The notes under the pieces were generated by a model. It made no database searches. It saw only the letters and a list, made by a program, of their open reading frames with translations, and had not been told where the DNA came from. The position numbers and the translations under genes were made by a program. DNA of 57,476 nt from positions 1-57,476 of IMG/VR virus record IMGVR_UViG_3300050821_002180. One strand, given 5' to 3'. Each line of letters opens with the position of its first letter. Position 1 is the stretch's first letter. This document shows, one piece after another, positions 34,374 through 54,616 of the stretch. This stretch comes from a virus.

Positions 34374-35057
34374 ATGAGCAGAGCAAACACAGCCGTCGCG
34401 ATGGTCCCCAAAGGAGAAACTGGCAAGGTTATTCCAATAGTGCGGCCAACCATCAGTCATCTGGTCGCAATGATCGAAGGCATCACGCCACTTCTACAGA
34501 ATCCGAAAACTGCGGATTATCTTCAGGCAATTGAGAATCCCGGAGATGCTGCACCGAGCAACAAAGTGAAAAATCCAGATAAGGAGTATAAGGATCGTTT
34601 GCGGGCCAGCAAGGGATTGTACCTGCACCCGGTCGAAGCATTCACTGGCCGCAAGGGAGTATTCCAATCAGCGGCTAAGGTGGCGCGTCTTCGCAAAATC
34701 AATTCGAAGATCGTAATGACTGGCATAAAGATTGAACATGATCTCTTGTCCGAATTCGCTGATGGCATTCGGCCCTACATCGTCATCAACAGCAAGAGCG
34801 GCCCTGTCAACGACAAACACATTGCCGAGATCGAGAAAATGGGACGCCACATCCCCATCCCGATTTATCGCCCTCGCTTTGATGACTGGTCTATGGAACT
34901 CCGTATTTCCTATTGGCCGAGCCTTGTCAGTCTTTCAAACTTGATGTCACTTCTCGCTACGGCGGGGGAAATTGGCATTGGGTCCTATCGACCTGAGAAT
35001 GGTGGAACCTTCGGGACGTTCAAGGTTTCATCGGCGCGGGAAGTTCCAAAGTTTTAG
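34374..35057 (+). CDS. Conserved phage protein, possible nucleic-acid-metabolism role
   Basis: 227 residues from ATG 34374 (AAGGAG upstream; an in-frame TTG precedes it). The layout SHLVAMIEGITPLLQN, EYKDRLRASKGLYLHP, ... RPRFDDWSMELRISYWP, GEIGIGSYRPENGGTFGTFKV (parts) belongs to a family repeatedly encoded near recombination or replication genes of phages, function unknown to me. It lies directly before the first pentanucleotide tract. Confidence 0.7.
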   Translation: MSRANTAVAMVPKGETGKVIPIVRPTISHLVAMIEGITPLLQNPKTADYLQAIENPGDAAPSNKVKNPDKEYKDRLRASKGLYLHPVEAFTGRKGVFQSAAKVARLRKINSKIVMTGIKIEHDLLSEFADGIRPYIVINSKSGPVNDKHIAEIEKMGRHIPIPIYRPRFDDWSMELRISYWPSLVSLSNLMSLLATAGEIGIGSYRPENGGTFGTFKVSSAREVPKF

Positions 35058-35061
35058 CAGA

Positions 35062-35304
35062 CTCGCAGCTAAGCGGAGCAAAGCCATGCGACGCTTGGCG
35101 TAGCCGAGCCTAGCAAAGCAAAGCCGAGCCTTTCAAACCCAAAGCGCAGCCAAGCTGAGCGCGGCGCGGCAGAGCGAAGCGCGGCGAGGCCAAGCGAGGC
35201 CTAGCACTTGCAAAGCACTTCAAACTCGAAGCCTAGCGAAGCGAAGCCGAGCTTAGCCGAGCAAGGTTTAGCGAAGCAAAGCCAAGCATGGCCTTTCAAA
35301 CTCG
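35062..35304 (+). repeat. Pentanucleotide NNRGC repeat tract 1
   Basis: About 240 bases of degenerate five-base units ending in GC (taaGC ggaGC aaaGC, cgaGC ctaGC aaaGC, gaaGC caaGC). The tract is broken by the element TTCAAAC followed by C or T, at 35132, 35219 and 35295, after which the GC phase restarts. It lies between the genes ending at 35057 and starting at 35329 and shows no coding frame. Confidence 0.85.
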
Positions 35305-35328
35305 CACCAATATTTTTAAGGAGGATTC

Positions 35329-35919
35329 ATGGACAAAAGTTCAAAGACTTACATCCCGGCCCCTGGTTTCCACTTGTCGAGAACTGAAGCCAATAAGATC
35401 GGCAAGGCAATTGACATCTTTCTGAAAAAAGCTGGACGCGAACCAACGGTTGAGGAATTCGCAAAAGTGACTCGCGCCAGTTCCAATCCAGCCCATGCGG
35501 TCGTGGCTAAGAAATACAGAGAGATGACTCGCACTGCATGGGCAAATGCCGCCGATTACTGCATTCGTGGTGTTGATGTAATATGGGTCTCCAGTGGCGG
35601 TGAAACATCGGCTCCTTCGAAGGCGTTCTACATTCTACAAATTCCAACAAGTGCGCCTGCTAGTTCCGAGGCAAGACTCATTTTGTCTCAGGGACAAGTA
35701 GCGCAATCTGCCGAAGCGCTGGCCAGCCAGGAATCGCTCATGCGCCAAACAATCCGCACGGCCTTTTGTGACTTCGCTGTCGTAGCCGGATTTGTGAAAG
35801 CGCGACAATCCGTGCTACTCCTTCTCAGCGAGTTGAAAGTACAATCTAGGGCGGAGGTGCATCATGGTCAGAAGGTGCGCACGTCGCAAGTGCGGCGTAA
35901 AATTCACACCGCGCATTAA
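35329..35919 (+). CDS. Uncharacterised protein between the repeat tracts
   Basis: 196 residues with AAGGAGG upstream. YIPAPGFHLSRTEANKIGKAIDIF and a PTVEEFAKVTRASSNPAH segment suggest a helical N-terminus; the middle is Ala/Ser-rich. No family recognised. Its 3' end overlaps the small zinc-finger gene, and both genes lie between the two pentanucleotide tracts. Confidence 0.65.
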   Translation: MDKSSKTYIPAPGFHLSRTEANKIGKAIDIFLKKAGREPTVEEFAKVTRASSNPAHAVVAKKYREMTRTAWANAADYCIRGVDVIWVSSGGETSAPSKAFYILQIPTSAPASSEARLILSQGQVAQSAEALASQESLMRQTIRTAFCDFAVVAGFVKARQSVLLLLSELKVQSRAEVHHGQKVRTSQVRRKIHTAH

Positions 35920-36004
35920 GTCACAACGTTTCCATTCTCCGAAATGCAAGAATGCGGAAGCGCAGGCAAGATTTAGGACACGAAGCGTAGCGAAGCCAAG
36001 CTGA
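35864..36004 (+). CDS. Small zinc-finger protein running into the repeat tract
   Basis: 46 residues from ATG 35864, with GGAGG seven bases upstream, overlapping the previous gene. CARRKCGVKF and RFHSPKCKN give a C-x4-C...H-x3-C site (Cys5, Cys10, His24, Cys28). The last seven codons (SVAKPS and stop) are already part of the NNRGC repeats, so the tract has invaded or shaped the gene end. Confidence 0.6.
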   Translation: MVRRCARRKCGVKFTPRIKSQRFHSPKCKNAEAQARFRTRSVAKPS

Positions 36005-36098
36005 GCGAAGCCGAGCGACGCCTAGCGGAGCGGAGCGAAGCAATTCAAACCCAAAGCGCAGCGCAGCCTAGCATCGCGCAGCCTAGCACAGCGAAGCG
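35979..36098 (+). repeat. Pentanucleotide NNRGC repeat tract 2
   Basis: About 120 bases of the same units (cgaaGC gtaGC gaaGC caaGC tgaGC) with one TTCAAACCCAAAGCGCAG element at 36044, identical over this stretch to the one in tract 1 at 35132. It ends nine bases before the stop of the convergent Mu F-like gene. Confidence 0.82.
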
Positions 36099-36106
36099 AA
36101 CTCAAA

Positions 36107-36943
36107 TCATGCGGCCAGTTTTTGGAATCCAGAAAGTTTTATGAATTGACCGCGAGTTACCCGGAGAATTCGTCCTCCCGTGAAACATTTCGTGGGCCAC
36201 GCGATAATATCCAGCGAGATGAGCGGCAAAAAGTTACAGCGGCAATTTGGGAATTCGCCAGCCAATCCACGTCCAAGAGTGGAGGGTTGTCCGATCAATG
36301 CCTCGGGCTGAGGGGGATCATCAAAGCGCATTAGCGCGCCATCTAGATTTTTGTGCGATGGTCTTACGCGCTGGTCCTTTGCCGTAATCCATTGTCCCCA
36401 TTGAAGCCCTAAATCTTCTGCTCTTGCTCTTGTTAATGCCGTGCTCGCTTTTGAAGTTTCTGTCCGTGCAATCAATGCGGCCCGCGCCTTGGTAATCTGC
36501 GGGACTTTCTTCCGTAGATAATCTGCAATTGTTTCTGGTCGTAGACCTTCGAGTTGTAGTCTAGAAATTTCATTGTTCACTTCTTGGCGAATCGTAGCGG
36601 GAATCGAAGAGATAAGTTTGGCATTCTCGGCGACGAGTTCGTGGACGCGCTGGCCTACGCCGGTTTCCATTTCCTTTTGTAAGGCTTCGAAGATTTCACG
36701 TCCGCGGCTGGCTTCGCGCGCGGCCTCCCGCCAAGATCGTGCATTTACCACTTTGATTTGCGTGACCATGCGCCGCGCGATCGATGCTGCAAGGGATTCC
36801 AGTACCTCGGGAGTGCGTGAAAGATTGGCGAAGGCTTGGAGCACGCTGTCAGGCGTGAGGTCATCAGGCAGGAACTTTCCTATTAGCTTTTGTATTAGCC
36901 TGCGATATTCCGTCTCGATGCGGTTTGGAGGATCGAACGGCAT
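36107..36943 (-). CDS. Mu F-like head morphogenesis protein
   Basis: 278 residues. The C-terminal half is diagnostic: RTETSKASTALTRARAEDLG, WITAKDQRVRPSHKNLDG and GEFPNCRCNF. The N-terminal half is helical with PETIADYLRKKVPQI. Such proteins are minor head proteins that accompany the portal; here it is separated from the portal by the small-gene run and the tRNA cluster. Confidence 0.88.
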   Translation of the reverse strand: MPFDPPNRIETEYRRLIQKLIGKFLPDDLTPDSVLQAFANLSRTPEVLESLAASIARRMVTQIKVVNARSWREAAREASRGREIFEALQKEMETGVGQRVHELVAENAKLISSIPATIRQEVNNEISRLQLEGLRPETIADYLRKKVPQITKARAALIARTETSKASTALTRARAEDLGLQWGQWITAKDQRVRPSHKNLDGALMRFDDPPQPEALIGQPSTLGRGLAGEFPNCRCNFLPLISLDIIAWPTKCFTGGRILRVTRGQFIKLSGFQKLAA

Positions 36944-37087: not shown

Positions 37088-37164
37088 TGGTCGGGAACCT
37101 CGGATTCGAACCGAGAGTCTCGTGCTCCCAGGGCACGCGGGTTAAGCCGTTTCCCTAGTTCCCG
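37088..37164 (-). tRNA. tRNA-Pro (anticodon TGG), CCA encoded
   Basis: Acceptor CGGGAAC/GTTCCCG with A73 and an encoded CCA; anticodon loop CCTGGGA closed by CGTGC/GCACG; T-arm CTCGG-TTCGAAT-CCGAG. Position 33 is C instead of the near-universal U, which is unusual. Confidence 0.87.
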
Positions 37165-37165
37165 A

Positions 37166-37237
37166 TTGCGGTGACTGGATTCGAACCAGCGACCTACGGA
37201 TTATGAGCCCGTCGCGCTACCTCTGCGCCACACCGCT
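37166..37237 (-). tRNA. tRNA-Met (anticodon CAT), CCA not encoded
   Basis: Anticodon loop CTCATAA in stem ACGGG/TCCGT, D-stem GCGC/GCGC, T-arm GCTGG-TTCGAAT-CCAGT. The acceptor pairs at six positions, but 1-72 is A-A, an initiator-like mismatch. The 11-24 pair is C-G, as in elongators. An Ile2 (modified CAT) identity cannot be excluded. It is one base from tRNA-Pro. Confidence 0.83.
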
Positions 37238-37276
37238 GTAAGTTTTATACGCTCAAGGGATTGCTATGTCAAGAAT

Positions 37277-37362
37277 TGGCGGAGGGTGGACGAATCGAAC
37301 GCCCGTCATCTCTGACGCCCTGGGTTTCGAGTCCAGTTGCCGGCCATTTAGCAGCACCCTCC
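37277..37362 (-). tRNA. tRNA-Ser (anticodon CGA), CCA encoded
   Basis: Acceptor GGAGGGT/ACCCTCC with G73 and CCA; anticodon loop CTCGAAA; long class II variable arm with CGTCA/TGACG stem. One mismatch (A-C) closes the anticodon stem. Confidence 0.87.
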
Positions 37363-37414
37363 GATGGAGAGTGCGAAGATGATTCGTTCGTCATAGCGGT
37401 AATCCTATCACATT

Positions 37415-37500
37415 TGGCGGAGCAGGAGAGACTTGAACTCCCACGTCCTTTCGGACGACAGATTAGCAATCTGTTGCGGCTACCATTTCGCCACTGCTCC
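37415..37500 (-). tRNA. tRNA-Ser (anticodon GCT), CCA encoded
   Basis: Acceptor GGAGCAG/CTGCTCC, G73, CCA; anticodon loop TTGCTAA in ACAGA/TCTGT; long variable arm CGTCC-GAAA-GGACG; T-arm with TTCAAGT loop. Confidence 0.92.
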
Positions 37501-37505
37501 AAACT

Positions 37506-37597
37506 TGGTGCGCTCTATCGGACTCGAACCGATACGGGCCTACTTAGGTGCCAAGAGATTTTAAGTCTCTCGCGTCTGCCAATTCCGCCAAGAGCGC
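37506..37597 (-). tRNA. tRNA-Leu (anticodon TAA), CCA encoded
   Basis: Acceptor GCGCTCT/AGAGCGC, A73, CCA; anticodon loop CTTAAAA in AGAGA/TCTCT; class II variable arm; T-arm TATCGG-TTCGAGT-CCGATA. Confidence 0.92.
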
Positions 37598-41395: not shown

Positions 41396-43369
41396 TTAGC
41401 TCCTTATCATCTGCGGTCGTTTCTTTGTCGCGAGAACGCGATCTATAAACTTTCCAACTGGCAGAATTTCCATTGAACCAAAATGCTCAGGCCGGTCATA
41501 ATTCGAGTAGAACGCAGCGCGTGCTTCGGCTTGCGAACCAAAATTAACGAAACATTTATCCTCATCGAACTCCATGAAGTCGGGTGCCTTCATTGTGTGG
41601 ATGACGTAGACTTCCTCTGAGTTTGGGTCAGGCCCTACAAATACGTCAACGTGGTCCCCATCGGTGCCTCTCGTGTTGCGCAGGTACCCGTAGTCGTGAG
41701 TAAGTGTCACTTCCCAATCGTTGCCGCCTTTGTCTTTGCCCTTGCGCGTCGAGCCAGCTTCATTCTCAATGGAGATATCCAGTCCGTGCCACACGATGCG
41801 TTTATGTAATGAGCGCGCATCTGCGACGACCGCATCTGCAGCACCCGTTTTGCGCAGTATGGATTGAGGACGTTCAGGATGACCAGGACTTGGTCCTTTA
41901 CCTTCGATGCCAGCGAGCAACTCCTCGCCAGGCAGTTCAGGTTCCTCTTCGGCCTCGTTAATCTGTTCGTCGGTAATGTTTGTGAAGACATTCGTGGTTT
42001 CGCCCAAGGCTTGCAATTCTTGCATGGCTGTTTTGCGGCCTATCACGCCCGAATCGTAAGCAGCAAGAATCGGTGCAGAGGCTTTCGTAACTAGCTCTGC
42101 TTTTTCTTCCTCGGTGAGTACGCGGATCGACGGGAAAGACATATCCAAGTCGTCCGGAACTTCGCCAAAATCACTCATCAAGATTACGGGGAAAAGTTTG
42201 TCCAAGTTAGGGCGCAGATGGTTGCTTTGTTCTTTTGCAATGCGCTGCTCATAGAGGAGTTCGTCGGAATCGTTTGTTTGTCCCAAGCCAGTGATGGTAC
42301 GGCCAAAAAGATGCGTGATGGTATCTTCGGCTGCGCCCGCCACATCCATCTGGAACTGTTGATAGACTTCGCTCATGCCGGCGAACGAATACTGGACCGC
42401 TTTCATGTCGCCATCTTTACCAAGGATGAGCATGGACTGATTCGAGAGGATTTCATTCTGTGCCTGAAGCACACTGGCGAGTCGTTGTTGTGCCTGAGTG
42501 CCAGCGCCTAGTCCAGCGAGAAATTGGTCAAGAGTGGGATCGACACGCGCAATAATATTTGCGCGGAACATGAGCTGCAAGATCGACCAAGATGCATTGT
42601 CCTTTTTCCGTAGTTCTTCATAGACCAATTCGAGGATCGAAATACCCCAATAGAGTTGCGCCTGGAGTTCTGGCGTAGGAATCTCTGGACCTGTAAATCT
42701 CAAGATGCGGCTGGAATGCACGCGGAAGTTTTGACCTTTGTCCTGCGCGTAGCAGTTGTAATATTCTGGTAGTCCCCATTCGAGAGGATGCCGCAAGTTT
42801 TCCGAAAGTTCGCTATCTTCGGGCCAGATGCCTACCCAACGATCAAACGGGATGAGTCCTAGATAACTACCTGGGTTCACGTCATCTAGGTCGAGTGGCT
42901 CTGCGAGAATCTTTTCGTGGCCTTTGATGACAATAAGCGCGCCCGCTCCGCCGTAGAGTCGTGCCCACTTCAAGGCTCGGCAAATGTTGTATGGCGAATA
43001 TGTGCGCTGAATCGTCCGATTGAAAGTCTTGATATCCTCTGGGTCAATATCGGACACGAGCTTTGGCCATGCTCGTACCATATCCTCGGCTTTGCCATCC
43101 ACGATTCGGCGCGCGAGCCAGTGATTTCTGTAAAGCGTCAAAAGTAACCAGTAATTATTTGAGAGCCGGACCATTTCATAATCCGTGCCCTCAGTCAAAG
43201 ATGGGCTACCCCATCCCATCCTGGCTACCATGTTCACGAAATAATCGATGCCGGTTTGACGGAGAGGATCGGTCGCGTCTGTCGCGACTCCATTGCCATT
43301 GGCGTGACCGTTTTTCTTGGCTTTGGCGATGCGGTCGCGGGCGATGCGCTTTTTGGTTTTGGCTCTCAC
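41396..43369 (-). CDS. Portal protein fused to a pyrophosphatase-like domain
   Basis: 657 residues. Residues about 35-480 are a DUF1073-type portal: DYFVNMVARMGWG, RLSNNYWLLLTLYRNHWLARRIVD, ARLYGGAGALIVI, LIPFDRWVG, LFGRTITGLG. After a flexible stretch, residues about 527-645 are an InPase-type domain: HGLDISIENEAGSTRKG, DYGYLRNTRGTDGDHVDVFVG with the metal-binding DGDHVD, and FDEDKCFVNFG. Such domains are known from polyvalent phage proteins. On the portal it would be carried in the virion or procapsid. ATGA overlap with the upstream small gene. Confidence 0.88.
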   Translation of the reverse strand: MRAKTKKRIARDRIAKAKKNGHANGNGVATDATDPLRQTGIDYFVNMVARMGWGSPSLTEGTDYEMVRLSNNYWLLLTLYRNHWLARRIVDGKAEDMVRAWPKLVSDIDPEDIKTFNRTIQRTYSPYNICRALKWARLYGGAGALIVIKGHEKILAEPLDLDDVNPGSYLGLIPFDRWVGIWPEDSELSENLRHPLEWGLPEYYNCYAQDKGQNFRVHSSRILRFTGPEIPTPELQAQLYWGISILELVYEELRKKDNASWSILQLMFRANIIARVDPTLDQFLAGLGAGTQAQQRLASVLQAQNEILSNQSMLILGKDGDMKAVQYSFAGMSEVYQQFQMDVAGAAEDTITHLFGRTITGLGQTNDSDELLYEQRIAKEQSNHLRPNLDKLFPVILMSDFGEVPDDLDMSFPSIRVLTEEEKAELVTKASAPILAAYDSGVIGRKTAMQELQALGETTNVFTNITDEQINEAEEEPELPGEELLAGIEGKGPSPGHPERPQSILRKTGAADAVVADARSLHKRIVWHGLDISIENEAGSTRKGKDKGGNDWEVTLTHDYGYLRNTRGTDGDHVDVFVGPDPNSEEVYVIHTMKAPDFMEFDEDKCFVNFGSQAEARAAFYSNYDRPEHFGSMEILPVGKFIDRVLATKKRPQMIRS

Positions 43370-53896: not shown

Positions 53897-54616
53897 TCAG
53901 ACTTTCAAAATATCTTCCTTCTTGATCATCTTCGCGTCGAAATACTTGATGAATTGTTCCGCGCGAGCACGGTAAAGGATTGGGATATCCGAGATTTGAT
54001 GAACGCTGAAAGCTACCGCCATTGGGCAGTTTTCCCAAGAGTGGCATTCCCATGAAGCGTTTACTACATCAAGAAGAGCTTTCCCGCCTGCCTGCAAAAG
54101 CGCCGGTACGGTCCGTTCTCGGTATTCTTTCCAGGTCTCACCAGTTTCAATGGGCGTATCGTCATCCATCTCCGCATAGCGGAGGTCCGCAGAGCTGAGG
54201 TCCGCAGAGCTGAGGTCCGCAGAGCTGAGGTCCGCATAGCGGAGGTTCGCAGAGCTGAGGTTCGCAGAGCGGAGGTCCGCATAGCGGAGGTTCGCAGAGC
54301 GGAGGTTCGCAGAGCTGAGGTTCGCATAGCTGAGGTCCGCATAGCGGAGGTTCGCAGAGCTGAGGTTCGCAGAGCTGAGGTTCGCATAGCGGAGGTTCGC
54401 ATAGCGGAGGTTCGCAGAGCTGAGGTTCGCAGAGCTGAGGTTCGCAGAGCTGAGGTTCGCAGAGCGGAGGTTCGCATAGCGGAGGTTCGCTTTATGCTCA
54501 ATGGCCCATTTGACTGCTAGGCCGAGCTTGAACGATACCGAAACATTCTCATCGCACTCAATCTCCGCAGTGATTTGCACTCTACCTGAAAAGCGATTCT
54601 TGATTTCAACTTTCAT
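53897..54616 (-). CDS. Pentapeptide-repeat protein
   Basis: 239 residues. After an N-terminal cap (FSGRVQITAEIECDEN, KLGLAVKWAIEHK), residues 43-147 are 21 tandem pentapeptides A(N/D)L(R/S)(Y/S), a right-handed quadrilateral helix. A C-terminal domain follows (TWKEYRERTVPALLQAGG, WENCPMAVAFSVH, RAEQFIKYFDA). Some such proteins mimic DNA and protect gyrase; here the role is unknown. At DNA level the repeats are nearly identical 15-mers. Confidence 0.86.
   Translation of the reverse strand: MKVEIKNRFSGRVQITAEIECDENVSVSFKLGLAVKWAIEHKANLRYANLRSANLSSANLSSANLSSANLRYANLRYANLSSANLSSANLRYADLSYANLSSANLRSANLRYADLRSANLSSANLRYADLSSADLSSADLSSADLRYAEMDDDTPIETGETWKEYRERTVPALLQAGGKALLDVVNASWECHSWENCPMAVAFSVHQISDIPILYRARAEQFIKYFDAKMIKKEDILKV
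54176..54490 (-). repeat. 21 tandem 15-base units in the pentapeptide gene
   Basis: Units read GCG-AAC/GAC-CTC/CTG-CGC/AGC-TAT/TCT with very few changes. Length variation by slippage in multiples of 15 keeps the frame. All other frames of the same repeat are also open but low-complexity. Confidence 0.9.

Follow-up and report, generated by a model that had tools for sequence, protein, structure and literature searches.

A phage interference system termed VIPR (Viral Interference Programmable Repeat) is described in a preprint (PMC13142463; bioRxiv 2026.04.26.720920) as consisting of a phage RAMP protein, Vipr, and guide RNAs termed vrRNAs. The published vrRNAs comprise 9-16 pentamers, in which a constant GGY triplet alternates with a variable dinucleotide, NN (PMC13142463). 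Double-stranded DNA is recognised through these NN pairs, with a skip of one base, and competing elements are silenced. A Vipr thumb domain and glycine-rich loop, an invariable 3' tail on the vrRNA and an accessory vap gene are further features of VIPR. The scaffold of all VIPR types is given as GGY "or a related consensus" (PMC13142463, fig. S17). Expression of vrRNAs, binding, the one-base-skip rule and silencing are reported in the preprint for the published systems, and the general VIPR mechanism is already in print.

The window analysed here is a stretch of viral DNA of 57,476 nucleotides (IMG/VR record IMGVR_UViG_3300050821_002180), and its locus at 34374-36108 is a divergent, AGC-type phage VIPR system. 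We put the probability that the two pentamer tracts at this locus are VIPR guide-RNA (vrRNA) arrays at roughly 92%. This assignment draws on the family and predicted fold of the protein, the layout of the locus, the strand bias and block structure of the tracts, and the co-variation of scaffold and Vipr residues. As in the VIPR of Escherichia phage SUSP1 and the type II system of a Pseudomonas fulva prophage, as the preprint describes them, a phage RAMP protein is accompanied by one accessory gene and by flanking pentamer arrays, with a constant triplet alternating with variable NN and 9-16 units per guide. The window blocks, at 9-13 units, fit the published range, which counts in favour of VIPR identity. 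Counting against it are a triplet that is AGC rather than the published GGY, a tail of about 9 nt (TTCAAACYC) with no predicted fold where that of SUSP1 is described as structured, the lack of a target and of a skip-1 signal in the searches described below, and the long branch on which the window Vipr lies. The AGC triplet falls outside a strict GGY definition, but within the preprint's broader wording of a related consensus. The accessory gene also belongs to a different family from that of the SUSP2 VIPR. The features of the locus are as follows:

34374..35057, + strand: vipr, encoding a 227-aa RAMP protein (phrog_4652); Ile164 is encoded at 34863-34865 and Ser204 at 34983-34985
35065..35129, + strand: vrRNA block 1, 13 NNRGC units, then NN=CT
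35132..35140, + strand: block-end element TTCAAACCC, a short tail or junction
35141..35205, + strand: vrRNA block 2, 13 units, then NN=AC
35208..35227, + strand: junction of TTGCAAAGC, AC and TTCAAACTC, where TTGCAAAGC resembles a decayed copy
35228..35292, + strand: vrRNA block 3, 13 units including one AAGGT, then NN=CT
35295..35303, + strand: block-end element TTCAAACTC
35329..35919, + strand: accessory (vap-like) gene, 196 aa, phrog_15946-type family
35982..36041, + strand: vrRNA block 4, 12 units, then NN=AA
36044..36052, + strand: block-end element TTCAAACCC
36053..36097, + strand: vrRNA block 5, 9 units, then NN=GA
36100..36108, + strand: ACTCAAATC, judging by its letters probably a decayed block-end element

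The guide array was picked out from the raw sequence by a reader without tools, who reported two tracts of NNRGC repeats with a period of five. These lie on the + strand at 35065-35292 and 35982-36097, and their periodicity is far above chance. Exact in-phase five-base GC runs reach 13 (35068-35129), 13 (35144-35205) and 7 + 5 (35231-35292) in the first tract and 12 (35985-36041) and 9 (36056-36097) in the second, against a maximum of 3 in the rest of the 57 kb window. GC pairs at lag 5 rise to as many as 21 per 120 nt in the window, compared with at most 7 in whole-window Markov shuffles; inside the tracts they number 36 and 20, compared with 8.4±3.1 and 4.5±2.2 in shuffles. The element TTCAAAC(C/T)C, which the sequence-only reading had seen to break the phase, does so at four sites (35132, 35219, 35295 and 36044), and the breaks are regular, with blocks of exactly 13, 13, 13, 12 and 9 pentamers lying between them. 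At its end each block has NN followed by TTCAAACYC, intact or decayed, and TTCAAACCCAAAGCGCAG is common to both tracts, as had been noticed.

All 60 units have G at position 4 and 59/60 have C at position 5, while position 3 is A in 48, G in 8, C in 3 and T in 1. The constant triplet is AGC in most units, with departures from the scaffold in 4/60 (3 C, 1 T). Entropies for unit positions 1-5 are 1.81, 1.86, 0.96, 0 and 0.12 bits, such that the NN positions are variable and the GC fixed across the five blocks. Folding of the tracts and of their TTCAAACYC tails as RNA gave no structure beyond that of shuffles (z 0.28 and -0.08). An interpretation of TTCAAACYC as a T-loop was rejected because the flanking stem is absent.

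The 34374 protein matches no family in Pfam or NCBIfam, and in PHROGs it matches only phrog_4652, which is annotated as of unknown function. A profile built from 103 relatives retrieves a single PDB entry, 36pp, "SUSP1 Vipr protein" (E=4.5e-55), and the window protein alone matches the same entry with E=3.7e-4. On the evidence of an AlphaFold2 model (pLDDT 85.8), the window Vipr is predicted to be a RAMP protein with a Cas7-type fold; Foldseek ranks Cas7-like subunits from CRISPR complexes of type VII and type III (Csm) highest (E 3e-6). The modelled likeness to type VII Cas7 and Csm3 (TM ~0.5) includes a glycine-rich loop, GIGSYRP at residues 201-207, which aligns to GxG[DE]xRP. Identity to these subunits is however only 10-16%, and the locus has neither cas genes nor a repeat-spacer array. 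A guide array beside a RAMP gene is also the arrangement of class 1 CRISPR-Cas loci, but here the code lies in noncontiguous NN pairs within pentamers instead of contiguous spacers, and adaptation genes are absent. As the unit is 5 nt long and none of the nearby genes examined belongs to a Cas family, the tracts are not CRISPR, and the original view that they are not coding, microsatellite or iteron sequence either is upheld. The window Vipr forms a long lone branch, with no more than 31% identity to any other Vipr, and its tree position is unsure because the tree was built by a quick method and the branch is long.

The AGC scaffold has evolved many times: the tree of 121 Viprs requires 15 changes for it, at least 7 of them forced by well-supported branches. 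When 163 columns of the Vipr alignment were scored for co-variation with the scaffold using phylogenetically independent pairs, two were well ahead of the rest, with 5.96 and 4.86 against 2.97 for the next column and a median of 0.33; these are the acidic residue of the GxG[DE]xRP glycine loop and the first residue of an RxRP motif. Among 216 systems with an assigned scaffold, the loop residue is Asp or Glu in 170/181 GGY systems and in 0/35 AGC systems (Fisher 5e-31), and Arg or Lys precedes RP in 175/181 and 3/35, respectively (Fisher 1e-28). Of 7 tree-independent pairs, 6.0 on average have the acidic residue going with GGY, and none shows the reverse. Unlike nearly all GGY-type Viprs, the window Vipr has Ser204 at the Asp/Glu position and Ile164 at the Arg/Lys position. 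Further shifts with the scaffold affect the His of PLLMH (Asn43 in the window) and another acidic position (Arg77 in the window).

The same residues are informative where tracts are short or missing. Asp/Glu and Arg/Lys occur together in 69 of the 71 Viprs whose loci have no long tract, and these 69 are therefore predicted to be GGY systems; under a looser tract definition, resting on single short runs, the 71 loci give GG in 50 and AG in 4. Three further loci with tracts, from cellular genomes, all combine GGC with Asp/Glu.

From this co-variation we propose that the acidic loop residue and the Arg/Lys recognise the first guanine of the scaffold and are lost when that base is adenine. The Arg might contact the Hoogsteen edge of the guanine and the Asp/Glu its N1/N2 positions. 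The Arg is not essential, since SUSP-type Viprs pair a Ser at this second position with a GGT scaffold, and of the two predicted contacts that of the acidic residue is therefore the stronger prediction. We lean, with some reserve, towards the view that VIPR has at least two scaffold dialects, GGY and AGC, which have been switched repeatedly, are set by two Vipr residues reading guanine and are mutually orthogonal. If A-type systems were orthogonal to G-type systems, the Vipr of one phage could not load the vrRNAs of another. Going by the main text of the preprint, the co-variation between scaffold triplet and Vipr residues is new, although AGC as a scaffold may already be known to its authors. 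It offers a testable rule for RNA recognition by Vipr, in that two residues change together with the first base of the scaffold in many separate lineages and, if the rule is true, mutually orthogonal VIPR systems would be predictable from sequence.

The residue pattern also bears on whether the system is a relic, in which arrays and vipr persist but no longer work. The degenerate elements at 35208 and 36100, the scaffold departures in 4/60 units and the long Vipr branch are all compatible with decay. Nevertheless, vipr is intact, the G at unit position 4 is retained in every one of the 60 units and the window Vipr carries the residues that match an AGC scaffold, which together make decay unlikely.

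If AGC-type systems work as published VIPR does, as we infer, gene 34374 would supply the small RAMP protein Vipr, whose fold is the Cas7 type of CRISPR complexes, and the tracts would be transcribed as five vrRNAs. Each vrRNA would be coated by several copies of Vipr, one per pentamer, in such a way that the protein grips the constant triplet, AGC in this case, and leaves the variable NN pair exposed. The NN pairs would jointly base-pair with one strand of the target DNA, one base being skipped between pairs, and the complex would sit on a gene belonging to a competing phage or another element and silence it, with the 35329 protein assisting.

Natural targets were sought by scanning viral contigs for exact matches to the 8 central NN pairs of blocks 1, 3 and 4, which returned 4, 14 and 20 viral loci, respectively. 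The best extensions were 11/13 pairs for block 4 in L549 and 10/14 for block 3 in L541 and L543. These were rejected as natural targets, being within chance expectation and, for L549, in a frame that is doubtfully coding; no convincing target was found in the viral contigs for these three blocks. The skip rule was examined with 598 vrRNA-like blocks against ~4.6 Mb of fetched DNA, counting blocks with at least 9 matched pairs. A skip of 1 gave 70 blocks, some from loci fetched by the same pattern, compared with 59, 68, 51 and 70 for skips of 0, 2, 3 and 4, and hence no excess. Read with one skip, the five guides give codon-like strings with no forced stops, and the first NN position across the 598 blocks is purine-rich, as in codons; both observations are suggestive only.

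This lack of targets, in the viral-contig scans and in the skip-rule test alike, is the point in favour of another reading, in which the tracts yield a sponge or structural RNA that is bound by Vipr but does not guide it. Against this stand the guide-like block lengths, the contrast between variable NN (1.81 and 1.86 bits) and fixed GC (0 and 0.12 bits) and the guiding activity reported for the published relatives (PMC13142463), and we consider a sponge very unlikely.

The association of tract and gene extends well beyond the window. Viral contigs were scanned with the DNA pattern (RGCNN)7RGC alone, and among the matches listed most were degenerate NNGGC tracts with block breaks and not microsatellites. 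Relatives of the 34374 gene are encoded at 79 of the 101 long-tract viral loci among the matches listed; there, gene and tract are usually adjacent and nearly always on the same strand. In the reciprocal test, 160 loci were picked by protein only, and a GG-lag-5 tract was present on the strand of the gene in 135 and on the opposite strand in 1, mostly within ~1.2 kb of vipr. The functional tie between the tracts and the 34374 protein, suggested at the outset, is thus borne out from both directions, and it survived a check of the 160 protein-picked loci for homologues without tracts. No support was obtained for the suggestions that the tracts serve as an origin, in recombination or in packaging, or that the 34374 protein targets them as double-stranded DNA. 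The tracts are non-coding, repetitive and adjoin small genes, as sites for origin, partition or packaging with in-phase GC steps bound by a phage protein might be, but such a site needs no fixed strand relative to one gene and the neighbouring protein has the fold of an RNA-guide-binding RAMP and a PDB relative named Vipr, which leaves this the least probable reading.

In genome contigs, matches to the pentamer pattern were, by match positions, largely palindromic or simple repeats, and 4/119 such loci encode Vipr or the accessory family (family A or B). A scan for AGC tracts returned many more loci, with 38 Vipr matches within them. Vipr-like proteins are also encoded in Patescibacteria-phylum genomes (L571-L581), where the surrounding ~1.5 kb is free of NN[AG]G[CT] tracts; the acidic G-loop residue is missing from several of these proteins, which may therefore use another scaffold.

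Literature searches on pentanucleotide or GGCNN repeats in phages returned nothing relevant. In phages Trine, Donkeykong and UmaThurman, the pentamer tracts are concealed beneath annotated ORFs. Translated vrRNA arrays are annotated as 'hypothetical proteins' in Mycobacterium phage Donkeykong (gp48; L251 1995-2381) and Gordonia phage UmaThurman (gp40; L252 3128-3451), and one forms the N-terminal part of Trine gp40 (L245 3091-3894). Close relatives of Donkeykong in GenBank probably share this misannotation. The Felix O1-type phages wV8 and SUSP2 (L250, L567) have NNGGT tracts around vipr, and in wV8 an annotated repeat, DR_4, flanks the vipr locus. At a few loci, mainly actinophage VIPR loci (L244, L246, L247, L320, L465 and L008), tRNA-like minihelices comprising an acceptor stem and T arm (GGTTCGANTCC) lie between pentamer blocks, where they are possibly tails or signals for processing by RNase P/Z.

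The accessory gene is preceded by a ribosome-binding site, AAGGAGG, at 35318-35324, and its product matches the profile of the phrog_15946-type family with E=1.7e-17. Members of this family often follow Vipr, and lie beside it at 26 of the 79 DNA-found loci (among the matches listed) and at 74 of the 160 protein-found loci. Profile comparison detected no relationship to the SUSP2 and wV8 accessory gene. An AF2 model of a central family member (pLDDT 95) had no significant match among solved structures, the best of the weak ones being winged-helix DNA-binding proteins and the ROQ RNA-binding domain.

A small ORF at 35864-36004 runs from the last part of the accessory gene into the first part of vrRNA block 4. 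It had been put forward as a 46-residue zinc finger that might bind the tracts; it is a CxxC ORF whose match to zf-CGNR (E=1.2e-4) is below the Pfam cut-off. Relatives are absent from all other fetched VIPR loci, and the ORF is probably unrelated to the VIPR locus or a product of chance. Elsewhere in the window, five tRNA genes are clustered on the - strand at 37088-37597, beside the VIPR locus, and the phage portal protein encoded at 41396-43369 carries an inorganic pyrophosphatase domain at its C terminus (Phage_portal_3 + InPase). A 15-bp tandem repeat of ~21 copies, with the consensus CGCAGAGCTGAGGTT, lies at 54173-54490.
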